A stretch of 64,000 nt of DNA, taken from the NCBI GenBank assembly GCA_903892415.1, contig CAITIQ010000344.1, forward strand, positions 248,001 to 312,000, read 5' to 3'. The position numbers and the translations under genes were made by a program. A model generated the notes under the pieces. That model saw nothing but the letters and a program-made list of their open reading frames with translations, was not told where the DNA came from and ran no database searches. Numbering within the stretch: position 1 is the stretch's first letter; every line of letters starts with the position of its first letter. The stretch is from an uncultured delta proteobacterium. Lineage in GTDB: Bacteria > Myxococcota_A > Polyangia > Polyangiales > Polyangiaceae. Of this stretch, positions 3,781 through 17,477 are shown in pieces.

Positions 3781-5670
3781 ATGCATCGATCTTTCGTTCA
3801 ACTGGCCGCGCTGAGTTCGCTAGGCACCCTAGCCTTGCTCACACCAGCCTTGGCCGAAGCGCAGACTGCTGTCGCCGAGAACCTCACCAACGGTGACTCC
3901 GGAGCGGATACGCATCTATTCCGGCCGCCGGTCGACTCCAAAGGTTTCATCTCGGTCAACGGCGCGGACATCGTCGGTCACCTCGATTTCAGCCTCGGGC
4001 TGTTCCTCGACTACGGCTACGGCATCATGCCGGTGGCCGAGGGGCACGGCGAGGAGGCGAACTTCCTGCTCGATCACTCGTTCCAAGGCACCCTCCAGTT
4101 CGACCTCGGCCTGGCGAACTTCATGGTCGTCGGGCTCTCGCTACCAGTCGTCCTAGCTGGGCATGAGGCCATCACCGACATCGGCCCAACCGGCCAGCTC
4201 TATTCGGTGAAGAACGACTTCGCGCAGGGCCTCGGCTTCATCGGCGCACACGCCAAGTTCCGCATCATTCGTCCGGAAGACGGGCCTTCGGTCGGTCTCG
4301 CGGCGATCGTCCAAGGCGGCGTTGGCGTCGCCGGGACGGAGGATCTGATCGGTGAAAAGGGCGGCTTCGTTTGGCCGCAGGTCGTATTCGAGGCTCGGGT
4401 TGCTCCCGGCGGCATTTGGCGAATCGGCGTGAACGGCGGCTTCCGCGCCAACTTCGGAGGCACCAACGCCGTGTTCGGTTCAGACGCCAACGGTGTGCCG
4501 GTGCTCGAGAGCGGGGAGTTCGAATACGGTCAGCTGGTAACGGCTGGTCTCGGAACCAGCATCCGCGTAGTGGATCCGCTCGACATCGTCGCCGAGACCT
4601 ACTCGTCGATTTTGGTCACCGGTGAAAACGACGCTAAACAACGCATCAGCGCCGAGGCTATCGGTGGCCTCAAGGTCTTCATCGACGGACGCAGCTTTCT
4701 CTTCCTCGGCGGCGGAGCTGGGTACGCCCCGGGCTTCCAAACAGCTACAGCGCGCGGCACCGTCGGCTTCGTGTTTGAGCCCTCCATCGGCGACAGAGAC
4801 GGTGACGGCTTCAAGGACGACGAAGATGATTGCCCCGATCAACCCGAAGATCGCGACGGCTTCGAAGATACGCGCGATGAAGCACCGCCCGGCCAACTTG
4901 GTTGCCCGGATCCCGACAACGACAAGGACGGCATCCTCGATGTCGATGATCAGTGCATCAACAACCCCGAGGACAAAGACGGAGATGAAGACACCGACGG
5001 TTGTCCCGAGAGCCGCGACGGGGATCGAGATGGGGACGGCATCCTCGATTCGCGCGACAAGTGCCCGGATGATCCGGAGGACAAGGACGGCTTCGAGGAC
5101 AAGGACGGCTGTCCCGATCTCGACAACGACAAGGATGGCATCCCGGATGCCAACGACGCTTGCCGCGATGACCCCGAGGACAAGGACGGCAAGGAAGATG
5201 AAGACGGTTGCCCGGAGACCGAGCCGCAAGGGCCGGTCATCATCGAGGGCAACAACATCCTCATCTTCGAGAAGGTGCAGTTCGCGACCGGCAGCGCCAA
5301 GATCCTCCCCGCCTCCGATTCAATCCTCGAGGCCGTGAGCAAGACGCTTCTGGAGCACCCGGAGTTTGCTCTGATCGAGGTGCAAGGTCACGCTGACGAG
5401 CGCGCAGATGACCGCTTCAACCTCCAGCTCACCAAAGACCGCGCCAAGGCCGTCATGCAGGCGCTCGTGAAGCGCGGTGTGGAGGCCGGCCGCGTTCGCT
5501 CGATGGGCTTCGGCGAATATTGTCCGCAGGATCCCGAGTCGAACGAGAAGGCCTGGGAAACGAATCGGCGCGTCGAGTTCAAGATCGTCCGTACCAAAGA
5601 CGGTCCGACCGACGTCGTGCTCGGCTGTGATGCGGCTGCGGCTAAGGGCGTAAAGTCCCCACCGCCGTGA
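3781..5670 (+). CDS. OmpA-family outer-membrane protein with thrombospondin type-3-like Asp repeats
   Basis: This 629-aa protein has a signal peptide (cleavage probably after ALAEA) and a beta-rich domain up to about residue 335. An Asp-rich block at residues 339-479 contains repeated DxDxDGxxDxxDxCPDxPED units, the pattern of calcium-binding thrombospondin type-3 repeats. A C-terminal OmpA peptidoglycan-binding domain (about 490-605) has NLQLTKDRAKAV and ETNRRVEF. It likely links the outer membrane to peptidoglycan through a calcium-stiffened stalk. An AAGGA ribosome-binding site lies just before the ATG. It is followed directly by a strong terminator and appears monocistronic. Confidence 0.93.
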   Translation: MHRSFVQLAALSSLGTLALLTPALAEAQTAVAENLTNGDSGADTHLFRPPVDSKGFISVNGADIVGHLDFSLGLFLDYGYGIMPVAEGHGEEANFLLDHSFQGTLQFDLGLANFMVVGLSLPVVLAGHEAITDIGPTGQLYSVKNDFAQGLGFIGAHAKFRIIRPEDGPSVGLAAIVQGGVGVAGTEDLIGEKGGFVWPQVVFEARVAPGGIWRIGVNGGFRANFGGTNAVFGSDANGVPVLESGEFEYGQLVTAGLGTSIRVVDPLDIVAETYSSILVTGENDAKQRISAEAIGGLKVFIDGRSFLFLGGGAGYAPGFQTATARGTVGFVFEPSIGDRDGDGFKDDEDDCPDQPEDRDGFEDTRDEAPPGQLGCPDPDNDKDGILDVDDQCINNPEDKDGDEDTDGCPESRDGDRDGDGILDSRDKCPDDPEDKDGFEDKDGCPDLDNDKDGIPDANDACRDDPEDKDGKEDEDGCPETEPQGPVIIEGNNILIFEKVQFATGSAKILPASDSILEAVSKTLLEHPEFALIEVQGHADERADDRFNLQLTKDRAKAVMQALVKRGVEAGRVRSMGFGEYCPQDPESNEKAWETNRRVEFKIVRTKDGPTDVVLGCDAAAAKGVKSPPP

Positions 5671-8552: not shown

Positions 8553-9236
8553 TCACATCAGCTGAAACTGCTCGCGCACCACAATGCGGCCCTCGCCCAT
8601 ATTGGTCGCTGACACAACTGCTCGGTAGTCGGAGAAGTTGAACTCCGAGGCGACCTGGCTCAGCTTGTTCTTCGAAAGGTAGCTGCTCGACTTCTCGCCT
8701 CGCTCTTTTGAGGGCGGCCCTGCAACCTCCTTGAGGCTCGTCGCCCGAGCTTGGACGAACTCCACAGCCGCTTCAGGCGCCATGCTGTTGCGAGTCACGC
8801 CAACGGTGACGAGGGCCTGAGCCGAGTCAAAAACGAAAAGCACCTCATCGGCGTCGGCCGACGAATCGATCGCCGCGCCAGCGACACTCACGCAGCGAAG
8901 TTCGTTGCTGCGAGCACCACTGCAGTTGACGCCGCGGTCGGCGGCCCAGCCTTCGACCGACGCTCGCGTGGTCTGGCCAAGCGTGAAGCCGAGTGCCGGC
9001 TTGCCCGAGGACTCGCCTTGCCCTCGAACCTTATCGAAAGCGAGCTCACGCGCTTGGTCACGTTGCTCGGGCGTAAGAGCAACGTCCATCCCCACCGGGC
9101 AGGCGCCCATCCCAGGGATATAGCGAAGCATCCAACGGCCAGATTTGGTGTGAGCAAATCCAATCACCCCGACCGCCAAAGCCGAGGTCAACACGAGACC
9201 TGCAGAGATACGAATCAGGATTGAACGCTTATTCAT
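8553..9236 (-). CDS. Membrane-anchored hypothetical protein
   Basis: This 227-aa protein starts at the ATG at 9236, which has GAGGACC just upstream; an in-frame ATG at 9260 is less well placed. One N-terminal hydrophobic segment (IRISAGLVLTSALAVGVIGF) is followed by an exported domain with three Cys, two of them in NCSGARSNELRCVSV, which could form a disulfide. No known family is recognised. It lies downstream of the globin lipoprotein on the same strand, with 60 bases between them containing a GC-rich stem-loop, so co-transcription is possible. The reading frame has normal codon use. Confidence 0.7.
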   Translation of the reverse strand: MNKRSILIRISAGLVLTSALAVGVIGFAHTKSGRWMLRYIPGMGACPVGMDVALTPEQRDQARELAFDKVRGQGESSGKPALGFTLGQTTRASVEGWAADRGVNCSGARSNELRCVSVAGAAIDSSADADEVLFVFDSAQALVTVGVTRNSMAPEAAVEFVQARATSLKEVAGPPSKERGEKSSSYLSKNKLSQVASEFNFSDYRAVVSATNMGEGRIVVREQFQLM

Positions 9237-9296: not shown

Positions 9297-9821
9297 TCAC
9301 TTGCCGATGAAGTCAGCGGCGAAGGTCGGATCCGTGAGCGCCGGAGCAAAACACTCACCGATGTAGTCATCGGGAACGCCTGCATCCGCGAGTACGCCTG
9401 CAATCAGGCCCACGAATGCGTCGTACTCCTCTTGCGTGATGTCGAGACCGGTGTGAGCCTCAACCATCGACGGTCCTTCGTACGTGCCCGTGGTGCAACC
9501 GTACGCATCCGAAACGAAGGCCGTGAGGCTCGCCTTGAAAGCGGTAACAGCGGCATCGCCCGCCATTACGAGCGGCGCAAAATCAGCCTCGAACTGGGGA
9601 TCAGTAGCGGCGCGATTCACGATCTCGTCAACAGCGGCCGGAACAGCAGCGCCGTAGTCGGTGCAAACGTCGCACTGCACGCCAGAGCCGCCCGTTCCGC
9701 CCTCGCCACCTGCACCACCGGTTGCGCCGCCGGTGCCACCGCCGCCGCTCGTCGAATCATCACCGCAACCAACTGCAACGAAAGCTGCGAAAAGTGCGCA
9801 GCTCAAAAACTTCAAAGCCAT
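9297..9821 (-). CDS. Lipid-anchored group 1 truncated hemoglobin-like protein
   Basis: The ATG at 9821 follows a strong TAGGAGG site and encodes a lipoprotein signal ending VAVGC (Cys19), then a GGxGG-rich spacer to about residue 47. Residues ~55-174 read like a group 1 truncated globin. The F-helix/F-loop stretch EGPSMVEAHTGLDITQEEYD matches the proximal-His region of that family, putting heme ligand His at residue 123; the helices ADAGVPDDYIGECF and DEIVNRAATDPQFEADF align with the G/H and B regions. The usual B10 Tyr seems replaced by an aliphatic residue. Most truncated globins are cytosolic, so a secreted, acylated form is unusual. Gas or redox chemistry at the envelope is inference. Confidence 0.72.
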   Translation of the reverse strand: MALKFLSCALFAAFVAVGCGDDSTSGGGGTGGATGGAGGEGGTGGSGVQCDVCTDYGAAVPAAVDEIVNRAATDPQFEADFAPLVMAGDAAVTAFKASLTAFVSDAYGCTTGTYEGPSMVEAHTGLDITQEEYDAFVGLIAGVLADAGVPDDYIGECFAPALTDPTFAADFIGK

Positions 9822-9884
9822 GAGGAACCTCCTAGTTCGGCGGGATACGTAGCAGCTTGCAGGCCGGTTGCCCAAGTTCGAACA

Positions 9885-9920
9885 AACGAGAAGAGGCCCC
9901 CGCTGGGACCTCTTCTCGTT
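9885..9920 (-). terminator. Rho-independent terminator
   Basis: AACGAGAAGAGG (9885-9896) pairs perfectly with CCTCTTCTCGTT (9909-9920). Read leftward the stem is followed by TGTTCG, so it best serves the leftward gene that ends at 9968. Confidence 0.8.
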
Positions 9921-9967
9921 GTCGAAGGTTTGGACGAGCCGTCGACGCTGGCTCGTTCGACCTGCAG

Positions 9968-12170: not shown

Positions 12171-12794
12171 ATGAGTGAATCATCCCGCACCAAGAACGAG
12201 CCGAACGACCACCGCGTCGTTCGTTTGCCGCTTTTGGACGCGGAGATGAAGCCGAGGCCGTGGGCTCAAACCCGCAAGCCGGCGGTAGCCAACCTGCAGG
12301 TCGGGGATCTCGCCAAAGCGGCCGGCAAGACGGTGCGCGCCATTCATCACTATGAGGAGCTTGGTCTACTGCGCCCCGACGCTCGGTCGAAGGGTCGGTT
12401 CCGGCTCTATGACGAGGGTGCCGTCGCTCGCGTTCGTTGGATCGGCAAGCTCCATGACCTGGGCATGAGCCTGCTCGAGATCCAAAAGGTGCTCGAGGCC
12501 TGGGAGAACGCTGAGGTGCCGGCGCGAGCCATGGCCGACGTTCGAACCGTCTACAGGAACCGGCTCGAAGAGACGCGCTCACAGATCGCCCGACTGCGCG
12601 CGCTCGAACAGGAGCTCGAGGCCAGCATCAACTACCTCGACACCTGTGACTCGTGTGCCCCACAACCGCAAGCCCTCGCCGAGCCGACCTCGGCCTTGCG
12701 TGAAAAGTCTTCCACTGAAGTGGTCTGTCGTTCGTGTGAGTTACGCGAGCGAGAGGCTGAACCCGATCTCGTTGCAGGCATCGTCGCCTCGTAG
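12171..12794 (+). CDS. MerR-family regulator with two CxxC motifs, heading the isc operon
   Basis: A 207-aa regulator with an unusual ~40-residue N-terminal extension before the MerR winged helix ([20 protein letters not shown], then [17 protein letters not shown]). A long dimerisation helix (about 115-155) follows. The tail contains C159-x2-C162 and C186-x2-C189, a candidate Fe-S or zinc site comparable in principle with the Cys cluster of SoxR. Its stop lies 28 bases before iscS, so it is probably part of the Fe-S assembly operon and its regulator in place of IscR. A small dyad ACTCT/AGAGT (12149-12170) touches the start and could be an autoregulatory site; this is weak. Confidence 0.85.
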
Positions 12795-12822
12795 CCCTCC
12801 GTTCAAACCGCAGAGACAAATC

Positions 12823-14046
12823 ATGGCGCTCCAACTCCCCGTTTACATGGACTATCACGCCACTACCCCGGCCGATCCGCGCGTGGTGGAAACGATGTTG
12901 CCGTACTTCACCGAGAAGTTTGGCAACGCGGCAAGCCGTAACCATGCCTTCGGCTGGACGGCGGAGGAGGCCGTCAGCGTCGCGCGCGAGCAGGTTGCGC
13001 GCTTGGTCGGCGCAAAGAACCCGAAGGAGATTGTCTTCACCTCCGGCGCCACCGAGTCGGACAACCTCGCAATCAAGGGCGTGGCCGAGTTCTACAAGGA
13101 CAAGGGCAACCACATCATCACCACGACGATCGAGCACAAAGCCGTGCTCGATACCTGCAAGCGACTCGAGAAAGAGGGCTTTGAGGTCACCTACCTTTCG
13201 GTCGGAAAAGACGGCCTGGTGGACCCCGATGACGTGAAGAACGCCCTCACCGACAAGACGATCCTGGTCTCGGTGATGTTGGCCAACAACGAGGTCGGCA
13301 CGGTGCAACCGCTCGAGGAGATCGGCGCGCTCACTCGGGCACGCGGCGTGCTCTTCCACTCGGACGCCGTGCAAGGGCTGGGCAAGGTCCCTTTCGACGT
13401 GGAGCGAATGAACCTGGATCTGGTGTCGATCACGGCCCACAAGATGTACGGCCCCAAGGGCGTTGGAGCGCTCTACGTGCGGCGTAGCAAGCCCCGCGTT
13501 CGCATCACGGCCATGCTCGATGGTGGTGGGCACGAGTTCGGCATGCGCTCAGGGACCTTGAACGTGCCCGCGATCGTCGGCTTCGGAAAGGCCGCGCAGA
13601 TCCTCGTGGAAGAAGGCCCCGCCGAGAGCGAGCGCATTCGAAAGCAGCGCGATCGGTTGCTGACTCGGCTCGAGGGCCAACTCGACGAGCTGAAGATCAA
13701 CGGCCACCGCGAGAAGCGACTCCCAGGCAACCTCAACATCAGCTTCGCCTTCGTTGAAGGAGAGGCGCTGCTGATGGCGATCAAAGACGTGGCTTGCTCC
13801 AGCGGCTCTGCCTGTACCAGCGCCAGCCTCGAGCCCTCCTACGTGCTGCACGCGATGGGCATCGGAGATGACCTGGCGCACTCATCGATTCGCTTTGGAC
13901 TCGGCCGCTTCACCACCGACGAAGAGGTGGACTTCGTGGCCGATCTCGTGAGCACCAAAGTGAAGAAGCTGCGCGATATGTCACCGCTCTATGAGATGCA
14001 CAAAGAAGGCATCGACCTGCAAACGGTGGAGTGGGCGGCTCACTGA
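12823..14046 (+). CDS. iscS: Cysteine desulfurase IscS
   Basis: The ATG at 12823 gives 407 aa, close to E. coli IscS (404). The N-terminus is [15 protein letters not shown]. The PLP Lys is K207 in [12 protein letters not shown], and the catalytic persulfide Cys is C331 in [17 protein letters not shown], the group I (IscS-type) loop. The C-terminal [17 protein letters not shown] is also IscS-like. It removes sulfur from L-cysteine and passes it to IscU. The reading frame extends further upstream, but that part only overlaps the end of the MerR gene and has no family similarity. Confidence 0.97.
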
Positions 14047-14086
14047 ACCGCCACCGCTAAACCTTTTCAACCTCGGAGAAACCATC

Positions 14087-14479
14087 ATGGCTTACAGCGA
14101 AAAAGTGATCGACCACTACGAGAACCCCCGCAACGTTGGCACGTTGGACAAAGCTGACGACAGCGTTGGCACCGGCCTCGTTGGCGCCCCCGCTTGCGGG
14201 GACGTCATGCGCCTTCAGATCAAGGTGAACGAGGGCGGCATCATCGAGGAGGCCAAATTCAAGACCTTCGGTTGCGGCTCTGCCATCGCCTCCTCGTCGC
14301 TCGCCACCGAGTGGCTCAAAGGCAAGTCGGTGGAAGAAGCCGAGACGATCAAGAACAGCATGATCGCCGAAGAGTTGAATCTGCCGCCGGTGAAGATCCA
14401 CTGCTCGGTCTTGGCCGAGGACGCGATCAAGTCGGCAATCGCCGACTACCGAGCCAAGAAGGCCGCTAAGTCCGCCTGA
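14087..14479 (+). CDS. iscU: Fe-S cluster assembly scaffold IscU
   Basis: This 130-aa protein is nearly collinear with IscU. It starts MAYSEKVIDHYENPRNVG and carries the three cluster-binding Cys in GAPACGDVMRL, TFGCGSAIASSS and KIHCSVLAEDAI, the Asp after the first Cys, and LPPVK, the HscA recognition motif. It assembles 2Fe-2S clusters with sulfur from IscS and releases them through HscA/HscB, all encoded here. The ATG at 14087 is preceded by CTCGGAG. It is 40 bases after iscS. Confidence 0.97.
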   Translation: MAYSEKVIDHYENPRNVGTLDKADDSVGTGLVGAPACGDVMRLQIKVNEGGIIEEAKFKTFGCGSAIASSSLATEWLKGKSVEEAETIKNSMIAEELNLPPVKIHCSVLAEDAIKSAIADYRAKKAAKSA

Positions 14480-14517
14480 CCACCAACGTCTCGACCTCCC
14501 CGCGAAACGACAGCGCC

Positions 14518-14937
14518 ATGACCTCACTGACAGAAGCCCAACAAGCCGCTTTCAAGCCCGTACCGAAGTTTGAGACGGGCGTAGCCAAAGACACGCTCGG
14601 CGTCTCGCCGAAGGCCGTCGAGGCGATCGAGGCCGCGCTCAAGAAGCGGGGAACTCCGGATGCGGCGCTGCGCGTCGGCATCCGCGGTGGAGGCTGCTCC
14701 GGCTTCTCCTACGTGATGGAGTTCTCGGATGACGCGCCACGCAGTGGCGACCGAGTGCTCGAACACACAGCAGCGAGCGGTGCCACCGTGCGAGTCTTCT
14801 GCGACAAGAAGAGCATCCTCTACTTGGGCGGCTCCGTACTCGACTACGAAAAGACGCTCATGTACCAGGGCTTCAAGTTCAAGAACCCGCAGGAAGCCTC
14901 CAAGTGCGGCTGCGGTCACTCCTTCACGGTCGCCTGA
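14518..14937 (+). CDS. iscA: IscA-type Fe-S carrier (HesB/IscA family)
   Basis: A 139-aa A-type carrier with the conserved Cys triad: GGGCSGFSYVMEF and the C-terminal KCGCGHSFTV. A ~30-residue N-terminal extension makes it longer than E. coli IscA (107 aa). It has VSPKAVEAIEAALKKRG, typical of the family N-terminus. It would receive clusters from IscU and deliver them to apo-proteins. It lies 38 bases after iscU in the same operon. ErpA or SufA subtype cannot be excluded, but the operon position supports IscA. Confidence 0.92.
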   Translation: MTSLTEAQQAAFKPVPKFETGVAKDTLGVSPKAVEAIEAALKKRGTPDAALRVGIRGGGCSGFSYVMEFSDDAPRSGDRVLEHTAASGATVRVFCDKKSILYLGGSVLDYEKTLMYQGFKFKNPQEASKCGCGHSFTVA

Positions 14938-14973
14938 GACTATTGCTCAGCAAGGGCCCAAGAGGAGCACTCC

Positions 14974-15543
14974 ATGGCGCGTTGTCCGTTCGACATCCTC
15001 GGTGTCGAGCCTCGTTTCGATCTCGATCTCAAAGCTGTTGCAGAAAACCATCGGGCTCTCGCCAAGACGCTGCACCCCGACAAGCACGCAGGCACCTCGG
15101 CCTCTGAGCGGCGTCTCGCGCTGGGTCACGCCATCGACGTAAACGACGCTGTTCGCGTTTTGAAAGATCCAATCAAACGCGCGGAGGCGCTGTTCACGCG
15201 GTTTGGTTTGGGCGCAGGCGAGGTCAGCGAGCCGAAGCCCAGCCCCGCGCTGCTGATGGAGATGATGGAGGCGCGCGAGGAGCTTGCGGAAGCCGTTCGC
15301 AAACGCGACATCGCCGAGGTCCGCTCGCTCAGCGCTAGAGTGAGCGCCACGAAGGACGCTGCGCTGGTCAAGCTATCGGCGGCCTTTCGTCAAGCCGACT
15401 CCACGCCGAACGATCGCACGTCGATTCTGCTCGCTGCGCTACCCGCCCTTGGCGAGCTTCGCTATGCCAAGCGCTTCGCAGATGAAGTGGCCGCCTTCGA
15501 AGAAGCGCTCGAAGACGACCCCCACCAAGATCGACCCACCTGA
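14974..15543 (+). CDS. hscB: Fe-S J-domain co-chaperone HscB
   Basis: A 189-aa protein with an N-terminal J-domain; the HPD tripeptide is at residues 34-36 in [10 protein letters not shown]. The C-terminal three-helix part is of HscB type ([19 protein letters not shown]), where IscU binds. E. coli HscB is 171 aa. It stimulates the HscA ATPase and brings IscU to it. Its TGA overlaps the hscA ATG by one base, implying coupled translation. Confidence 0.94.
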
Positions 15544-17477
15544 TGCTTCTTGAAATATTTGATCCCAAGGCTGCACCCCGTCCGATCGGCATTGATCTCG
15601 GGACGACAAATTCACTCGTAGCTCGCATGCGCGATGATGCGCCTGCGGTCATCCTCGACTGCAACCAAGCCTGGCTCGTCCCGTCGGTGGTTCACTACGC
15701 CGAGAGCGGCGCTGTCATCGTCGGCGAGGATGCAGAGCAGCTCGCGTTGCTCGACGCCTCCAACACCGTCGCCAGCGTCAAACGTCTGATGGGACGCGGT
15801 GGGGATGACGCCGAGACCAAGCGTCTCGGCTCACTCGAGTTCGCCATCGGTGAAACGGCCGAGGAAAGAAAGACCGTACGCATCAAGGTGCGCGACAAGA
15901 CGGTTACGCCAGTCGAGGTCTCCGCTGAGATCCTGAAGAAGCTGAAGCAGTTGGCGGTCGATGAGTTGCAGCGCGTGGGCGGGGCTGTGATCACCGTGCC
16001 CGCCTACTTCGACGATGCACAACGTCAGGCGACAAAAGACGCAGCAAAGCTCGCCGGGCTCGAGGTCTTGCGGCTGCTCAACGAGCCGACGGCAGCAGCG
16101 CTCGCGTACGGCTTGGAGAAGCGTAAAGACGGCCTTTTCGCTGTTTACGATCTTGGTGGCGGCACGTTCGACGTCACTGTGCTCAACCTCGATGACGGCC
16201 TCTTCGAAGTGAAGTCCACCGGCGGTGACAGCCAGCTGGGCGGGGACGACATGGATCGGCTGCTCGCTTCCGCCATCCTCGCCGAACACGGTCTTGTCGA
16301 GAGCGAGCTCAGTTCGGCGGAGAAGCGTGCAGCACTGGTTGCCGCTCGCCAAATCAAACACGCCCTGACGGACGCAAGCTCGGTTGAATTGGACCTCGCC
16401 GCCTTGGTCAAGAAGCCGGCGACCTTCAGCATCACGCGCGAGCGTTTCAACGAGCTGGTGAAGCCGCTGATCGAGAGGACGGGCAGCGCCTGTCGCCGTG
16501 CGCTTCGTGACGCAGGTGTCAAAGCCAGCGAGATCGACGGCGTGATCTTGGTAGGTGGCTCCACGCGCGTACCAGCCGTTCGAGCCTACGTGACCGAGCT
16601 CTTTGGCAAGGAGCCACTAGCCGACATCGATCCGGAGAAGGTGGTGGCGCTGGGTGCGGCCTTGCAGGCGCATCAGCTCGCCGGTGAAGGTCCCAAGGAA
16701 GACCTGCTCCTGCTCGACGTTTTGCCGCTCTCCCTCGGCATCGAGACGATGGGCGGCGTATGCGAGAAGATCCTCCCGCGCAACACGACGATTCCCACAG
16801 CCGCACGCCAAGTTTTCACGACCTACGCCGACAACCAGACCGGCTTTGAGCTGCACGTCGTCCAGGGCGAACGCGAGCTTGCTGCGGACTGTCGCTCGCT
16901 TGCTCGCGTCACCATGCGCGGGCTGCCCCCGCTGCCGGCGGGCTTGGCGCGCTTGGAGGTCACCTTCAAGGTCGACGCTGACGGCCTGCTTCAAGTGCAC
17001 GCCAAAGAGCTGACCACCGGCAAGGAGCAAACGATCGAAGTTCAACCGAGCTACGGCCTCAGTGAAGAGGAGATGGAGGGCATGCTGATGGCAGCGCTCG
17101 ACCACGGCGAGACCGATCTCGAGCACCGTCGTTTGATCGAGGAGCGCGTTGAAGCCGAGCGCGTGATCCTGGCGACGCAGAACGCTCTCAACGTGGACGC
17201 AGACCTGCTCAGCGCCGAGGAGCGCAGCGCAGTTGCAACGGCGTTGACCGAGCTCGCAGCAGCGCTGAAGGGCAGCTCTCCGAGCCTGATTCACGCGCGC
17301 ATCGAGATGCTCGATGGCGTCACAAAAGCGTGGGCTGGCCTGCGCATGGACCGAGCGATCGCGCGGGTGCTCGGTGGTAAAGGCATCGACGGAGTCGAAG
17401 AGACGGTGGCGCAAGCCAAAGGCGTGGATGAACACGTCGCGGCGCACGCTGAGGCACGAGCACGGGGAGCGATTTGA
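15543..17477 (+). CDS. hscA: Fe-S assembly Hsp70 chaperone HscA
   Basis: This 644-aa Hsp70 has the phosphate-1 loop [14 protein letters not shown], connect-1 [20 protein letters not shown], the phosphate-2 loop [16 protein letters not shown], adenosine motif [17 protein letters not shown], and a substrate-binding half from about residue 385. It shows HscA features such as [23 protein letters not shown]. It uses ATP to remodel IscU bound at LPPVK and drive cluster transfer. It lies between hscB (1-base overlap) and fdx (one base after the hscA stop). Confidence 0.95.

Follow-up and report, generated by a model that had tools for sequence, protein, structure and literature searches.

To our knowledge, work on bacterial truncated globins has treated them almost exclusively as proteins of the cytosol, and what they do is disputed. 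The known group-1 truncated hemoglobins are usually cytosolic, carry a tyrosine at position B10 and often have polar residues at E7 and E11. A survey of clade N truncated hemoglobins showed that leucine and other hydrophobic residues at E7, E11 and G8 correlate with low O2 affinity; large k-off values together with open tunnels were read as O2 storage or transport, and NO detoxification was suggested for a high-affinity subgroup (PMC4720485). Localisation was not considered in that survey, and no exported form or partner was described. Exported truncated globins have been reported from cable bacteria. In lPHCtX they are fused to a pentaheme cytochrome (PMC11976967, citing Kjeldsen et al. 2019), and a periplasmic truncated hemoglobin has also been described (PMC12093952).

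Here, we investigated a truncated globin gene in a 64,000-nucleotide stretch of DNA from an uncultured delta proteobacterium of the Polyangiaceae (the window). The features of the locus are as follows.

9297 to 9821, minus strand: lipoprotein globin gene, a 174-aa open reading frame with an ATG start (from the reading frame, globin homology and fold)
9765 to 9821, minus strand: predicted signal peptide and lipobox, AVG followed by C19, residues 1–19 (from sequence; the lipobox has the same place in relatives with a complete N-terminus)
9681 to 9764, minus strand: Gly-rich linker, residues 20–47 (from sequence; composition differs among relatives)
9300 to 9674, minus strand: truncated-globin domain, residues 50–174, 125 residues (from homology and fold searches)
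9453 to 9455, minus strand: codon of His123, the proximal HisF8 (His in 61/61 relatives' domains)
9618 to 9620, minus strand: B10 position, Val68, which is Tyr in HbN and GlbN (from alignment)
9525 to 9539, minus strand: E7 (Phe95) to E11 (Leu99), apolar distal face (from the alignment of 61 domains)
8553 to 9236, minus strand: partner gene, 227-aa single-pass membrane protein (from adjacency, motif count and model)
9881 to 9923, minus strand: GC-rich hairpin (−31.5 kcal/mol, z −6.0) that separates the globin gene from the gene upstream of it

The window protein alone scored 12.6 bits against Bac_globin (PF01152), below the 21-bit Pfam cut-off, and the same scan found no domain besides this sub-threshold globin; the case for a globin was therefore built on profiles and relatives. 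Among PDB sequences, phmmer matched the window protein to Synechocystis cyanoglobin (E = 5.7e-5) and M. tuberculosis HbN (E = 0.0008–0.002). A profile of ten close domains reached HbN at 4.4e-11 to 4.5e-10, and PF01152 was matched by 10/10 close members (best 4e-8). The top PDB entry for this profile was an engineered TyrB10Phe/GlnE11Val double mutant (46.7 bits versus 43.4 for the wild type), which fits an apolar pocket. The AlphaFold model, computed from an alignment of two sequences, had modest confidence (pLDDT 61.5). Foldseek ranks 1–30 for the model were all group-1 truncated hemoglobins, and VIA-align gave Z 8–9 over about 112 residues against the best of them. His123, the sole histidine of the 174-aa protein, aligned with the proximal HisF8, which in M. 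tuberculosis HbN is H81. A group 1 truncated-globin-like domain with its proximal His at residue 123 had been proposed in a preliminary description of this DNA, with structure prediction and alignment to trHbN as the check, and both claims were borne out by the sequence searches, the family profile and the model. Thus, sequence and model together make it well supported that the product is a group-1-type truncated globin with a 2-on-2 fold, its similarity being beyond chance.

Group-1 truncated hemoglobins were the best PDB matches in both sequence and fold. The window protein resembles M. tuberculosis HbN, Synechocystis GlbN and the Tetrahymena protein in its predicted 2-on-2 fold, HisF8, CD1 Phe, YxG motif and similar length. 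At the sites of the group-1 Gly-Gly motifs, EF reads Gly108-Cys109, where the second Gly is found in 27/61 relatives, and AB reads YGA, with one Gly. Unlike the known group-1 proteins, it is a predicted lipoprotein, its B10, E7 and E11 residues are apolar, it contains additional cysteines and its gene is linked to that of a membrane partner. A sub-threshold NCBIfam match to an NHLP RiPP leader (24 versus 40 bits, 19 residues) was seen in the window member alone.

Within its own genome, the full-length globin query matched mostly other Gly-linker lipoproteins that share the signal and linker alone, so later searches used only the globin domain. Of the 184 same-order genomes searched, 28 held a match to this domain, the closest being 64% identical, and a scan of IMG/VR found no viral relatives. 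The only Bac_globin match above threshold in the own genome (G000:C157:15886-16194, L001) is a different, cytosolic-looking truncated globin lacking a lipobox.

The protein starts with MALKFLSCALFAAFVAVGCGDD, and its N-terminal signal, MALKFLSCALFAAFVAVG followed by C19GDD, is that of a lipoprotein with Cys19 as the predicted lipidation site, ahead of the Gly-rich spacer. The signal peptide call is based on the lipobox and hydrophobicity. A hydrophobic signal precedes the globin in 44 of 47 ORFs of relatives, and in all 44 this signal ends at a lipobox Cys (recognised by pattern in 42 and by eye in two, which have TYAC); the available sequences of the other three are incomplete at the N-terminus. 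The linkers of relatives, built of Gly, Thr, Asp-Thr or Glu-Gly, are wholly divergent, whereas the lipobox is retained; the nearest relative (L023) has a run of about 25 Thr in place of the Gly linker, and Asp-Thr repeats occur in others. Two or three globin domains are present in 13/47 of these ORFs. Exported globin domains contain on average 3.0 Cys versus 0–1 in cytosolic controls, as would be expected for a location outside the cytoplasm; the four in the domain region of the window protein are at 50, 53, 109 and 157. The globin is under purifying selection (dN/dS 0.13–0.23).

It is therefore well supported by these sequence features that the globin is exported, and it is predicted to be lipidated at Cys19 and tethered to the envelope. 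The preliminary description had placed a lipobox and Gly-rich spacer ahead of the globin and a lipid-anchored product outside the cytoplasm, and the lipobox in 44/44 complete relatives agrees with both predictions. Its remark that the class is generally cytosolic holds for the known members, which are usually so, but lipobox globins are widespread in related genomes and exported ones occur in cable bacteria (PMC11976967, PMC12093952). As in lPHCtX, the truncated globin domain would lie outside the cytoplasm and sometimes occurs more than once per protein; unlike lPHCtX, which is fused to a multiheme cytochrome, the window globin is a stand-alone lipoprotein. Inspection of its sequence revealed no CxxCH motif.

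To describe the heme pocket, we aligned 61 globin domains from partner-retrieved loci with HbN, GlbN and the Tetrahymena protein. HisF8 (61/61), CD1 Phe (60/61; Phe81 in the window) and the Tyr of YxG (61/61) were conserved. On the distal side, E7 was apolar in 60/61 domains (one Thr) and E11 was Leu, Phe or Met in 61/61. At B10 we found Val, Leu or Ile in 48 domains, Thr in three, Phe in one and Tyr in none; with Glu in eight and Asp in one, some branches depart from the apolar pattern. Thus, the B10 Tyr had rightly been suspected of being replaced, and E7 and E11 of the window globin are apolar too. The pocket is predicted to keep its heme-side residues and to have lost the distal hydrogen-bond donors that stabilise O2. 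Tyr B10, Gln E7 and Gln E11 are kept in two of four cytosolic truncated globins of the same order and absent in the other two, so the loss is not simply lineage-wide. The family resembles the low-affinity subclades Na and Nc of clade N, in which hydrophobic E7, E11 and G8 residues are linked with fast O2 release (PMC4720485). A second same-order family of lipoprotein-like truncated globins (L038, L042, L043, L045, L047) also has apolar B10, E7 and E11, apparently without a partner.

The partner gene lies 60 nt downstream of the globin gene; among the globin's neighbours in the window, it alone is found again next to the globins of relatives. A globin was found within about 1 kb of the partner in 41/41 testable loci (full-length partner, strong matches, no cut by a contig end), a count that is not wholly independent since about 10 of the 41 loci came via the globin search and the rest via the partner profile alone. 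Start and stop codons overlap or abut in several pairs (L054, L055, L058), and the gene order is reversed in L089. The converse was weaker: around the close globins L172–L174, no partner lies within some 2.5 kb; two of these three genomes hold a second, paired copy. The pairing of the two genes is well supported by these sequence comparisons, and they are probably co-transcribed; the hairpin at 9881–9923 is a probable terminator isolating the two-gene unit. Both the adjacent partner and the family-wide conservation of lipobox and partner go beyond the preliminary description.

Elsewhere in the window, at 12171–17477 (plus strand), the gene of a MerR-family regulator whose C-terminus contains Cys lies directly 5′ of an isc-type Fe-S assembly gene cluster that encodes cysteine desulfurase, NifU_N scaffold, A-type carrier, HscB and HscA-like Hsp70; IscR is the usual regulator at isc clusters, and MerR is unusual there. 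The gene at 3781–5670 (plus strand) encodes a protein of the OmpA family in which Asp-rich, thrombospondin type 3-like repeats are numerous.

The partner has a TM segment at about residues 10–27, His29 directly after it, Cys46-Pro47, a conserved Cys105/Cys115 pair and a soluble alpha/beta domain at about 79–227 (pLDDT about 70–93 over most of residues 81–170 and 191–227). The His and Cys-Pro just outside the TM are present in 42/43 full-length partners, and the gene is under purifying selection (dN/dS 0.23–0.50). The Pfam search matched no family to the partner, and structure searches found no heme-binding fold. DUF4309 (B. subtilis YjgB, 4ygt) was the top structural match (Z 8.8, with an rmsd of 5.0 across 125 residues), yet at 6% identity and barely over the usual noise it was not read as a sign of kinship; a GST match at 0.007 was not taken as homology, and the DcrB, START-like and YidC periplasmic domains (Foldseek E 0.02–0.1) were not accepted. 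The partner profile matched in 33/179 same-order genomes and in 35/379 genomes sampled across the phylum, where the weakest matches were to the soluble domain alone. L146–L149, which are lipoproteins or TM-anchored, have only this soluble domain without the TM/His/Cys-Pro part and no globin within about 5 kb; they were excluded from the partner count. The partner is thus a membrane protein family without an earlier description, and its soluble domain belongs to a broader undescribed domain family.

Our best overall explanation, which we put forward tentatively, is an exported heme-binding lipidated globin with a dedicated partner for reversible gas handling at the membrane. The globin would be exported, lipidated at Cys19 and held at the envelope by its flexible linker, and heme would be loaded outside the cytoplasm; binding of heme in vivo is suggested by the conserved ligand. 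The product of 8553–9236 may dock or service the globin through physical interaction. Because the distal pocket is apolar, O2 would be bound weakly and released very fast, and NO or CO would be bound normally. The likeliest job may be to buffer O2 or facilitate its supply to the respiratory chain, or to capture NO or CO, rather than HbN-type NO dioxygenation. No respiratory, NO, heme (uptake, export, ccm), kinase or regulator gene was conserved beside the pair when the neighbours of relatives were compared.

The pair could instead be an extracytoplasmic heme carrier or chaperone, in which the globin holds heme and the partner passes it on through its membrane-proximal His and Cys-Pro ligands. 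These residues, present beside the TM in 42/43 full-length partners, an apolar pocket that requires no gas chemistry and tandem domains (13/47 ORFs) that would increase heme capacity all agree with this. However, heme uptake, export and ccm genes are not conserved nearby, the His and Cys-Pro may be merely structural and no heme-binding fold was detected in the partner, so that we regard a carrier as unlikely. Rather more unlikely is an envelope sensor of NO, CO or O2, whose ligand would alter the globin–partner complex and relay a signal onward. An apolar pocket would favour NO or CO over O2, and the membrane partner is always close by (41/41 testable partner loci), but this partner has a short cytoplasmic N-terminus and the neighbourhood no conserved kinase or regulator. 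The envelope heme sensor of the preliminary description is thus conceivable, but a recognisable output domain was found in neither the globin nor the partner.

A non-heme derivative acting as a binding module only had also been suggested; the sub-threshold Pfam score of the window protein and the lost distal residues would fit it. It is improbable because the conserved residues are those of the heme side (HisF8 61/61, CD1 Phe 60/61 and the invariant YxG Tyr). Terminal O2 reduction, proposed for the exported truncated globins of cable bacteria with their multiheme fusions (PMC11976967, PMC12093952), appears very improbable here, where neither a multiheme cytochrome domain nor such a neighbour was found at the globin locus. 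The least probable reading is a trHbN/trHbO-type NO dioxygenase or peroxidase relocated to the envelope. It would account for the group-1 fold and proximal His, but the route needs a stabilised oxy-heme. Unlike HbN, the family lacks TyrB10 (0/61) and GlnE11 (Leu, Phe or Met in 61/61), no polar residue stands at E7 or E11 (the logic follows PMC4720485) and no reductase is linked. The earlier idea of an NO scavenger is accordingly disfavoured for the HbN dioxygenase route.

The lipid-tethered gas-handling globin is thus preferred. Export of truncated globins is already known from cable bacteria, and the lipoprotein form with a dedicated partner is a new variant; our search of the open literature, which covered truncated globins in lipoprotein, exported, tandem or myxobacterial form, found no description of this family. 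The pair may represent a previously undescribed two-component heme/gas module of the envelope, a proposal to which we give somewhat less than even weight, composed of one to three lipid-tethered apolar-pocket globin domains and a new membrane family with His and Cys-Pro just outside the membrane. The family is large, consistently exported by prediction, has lost O2-stabilising residues and has a constant partner. The two-gene unit would therefore offer a genetic handle on the role of a low-affinity globin at the bacterial envelope.
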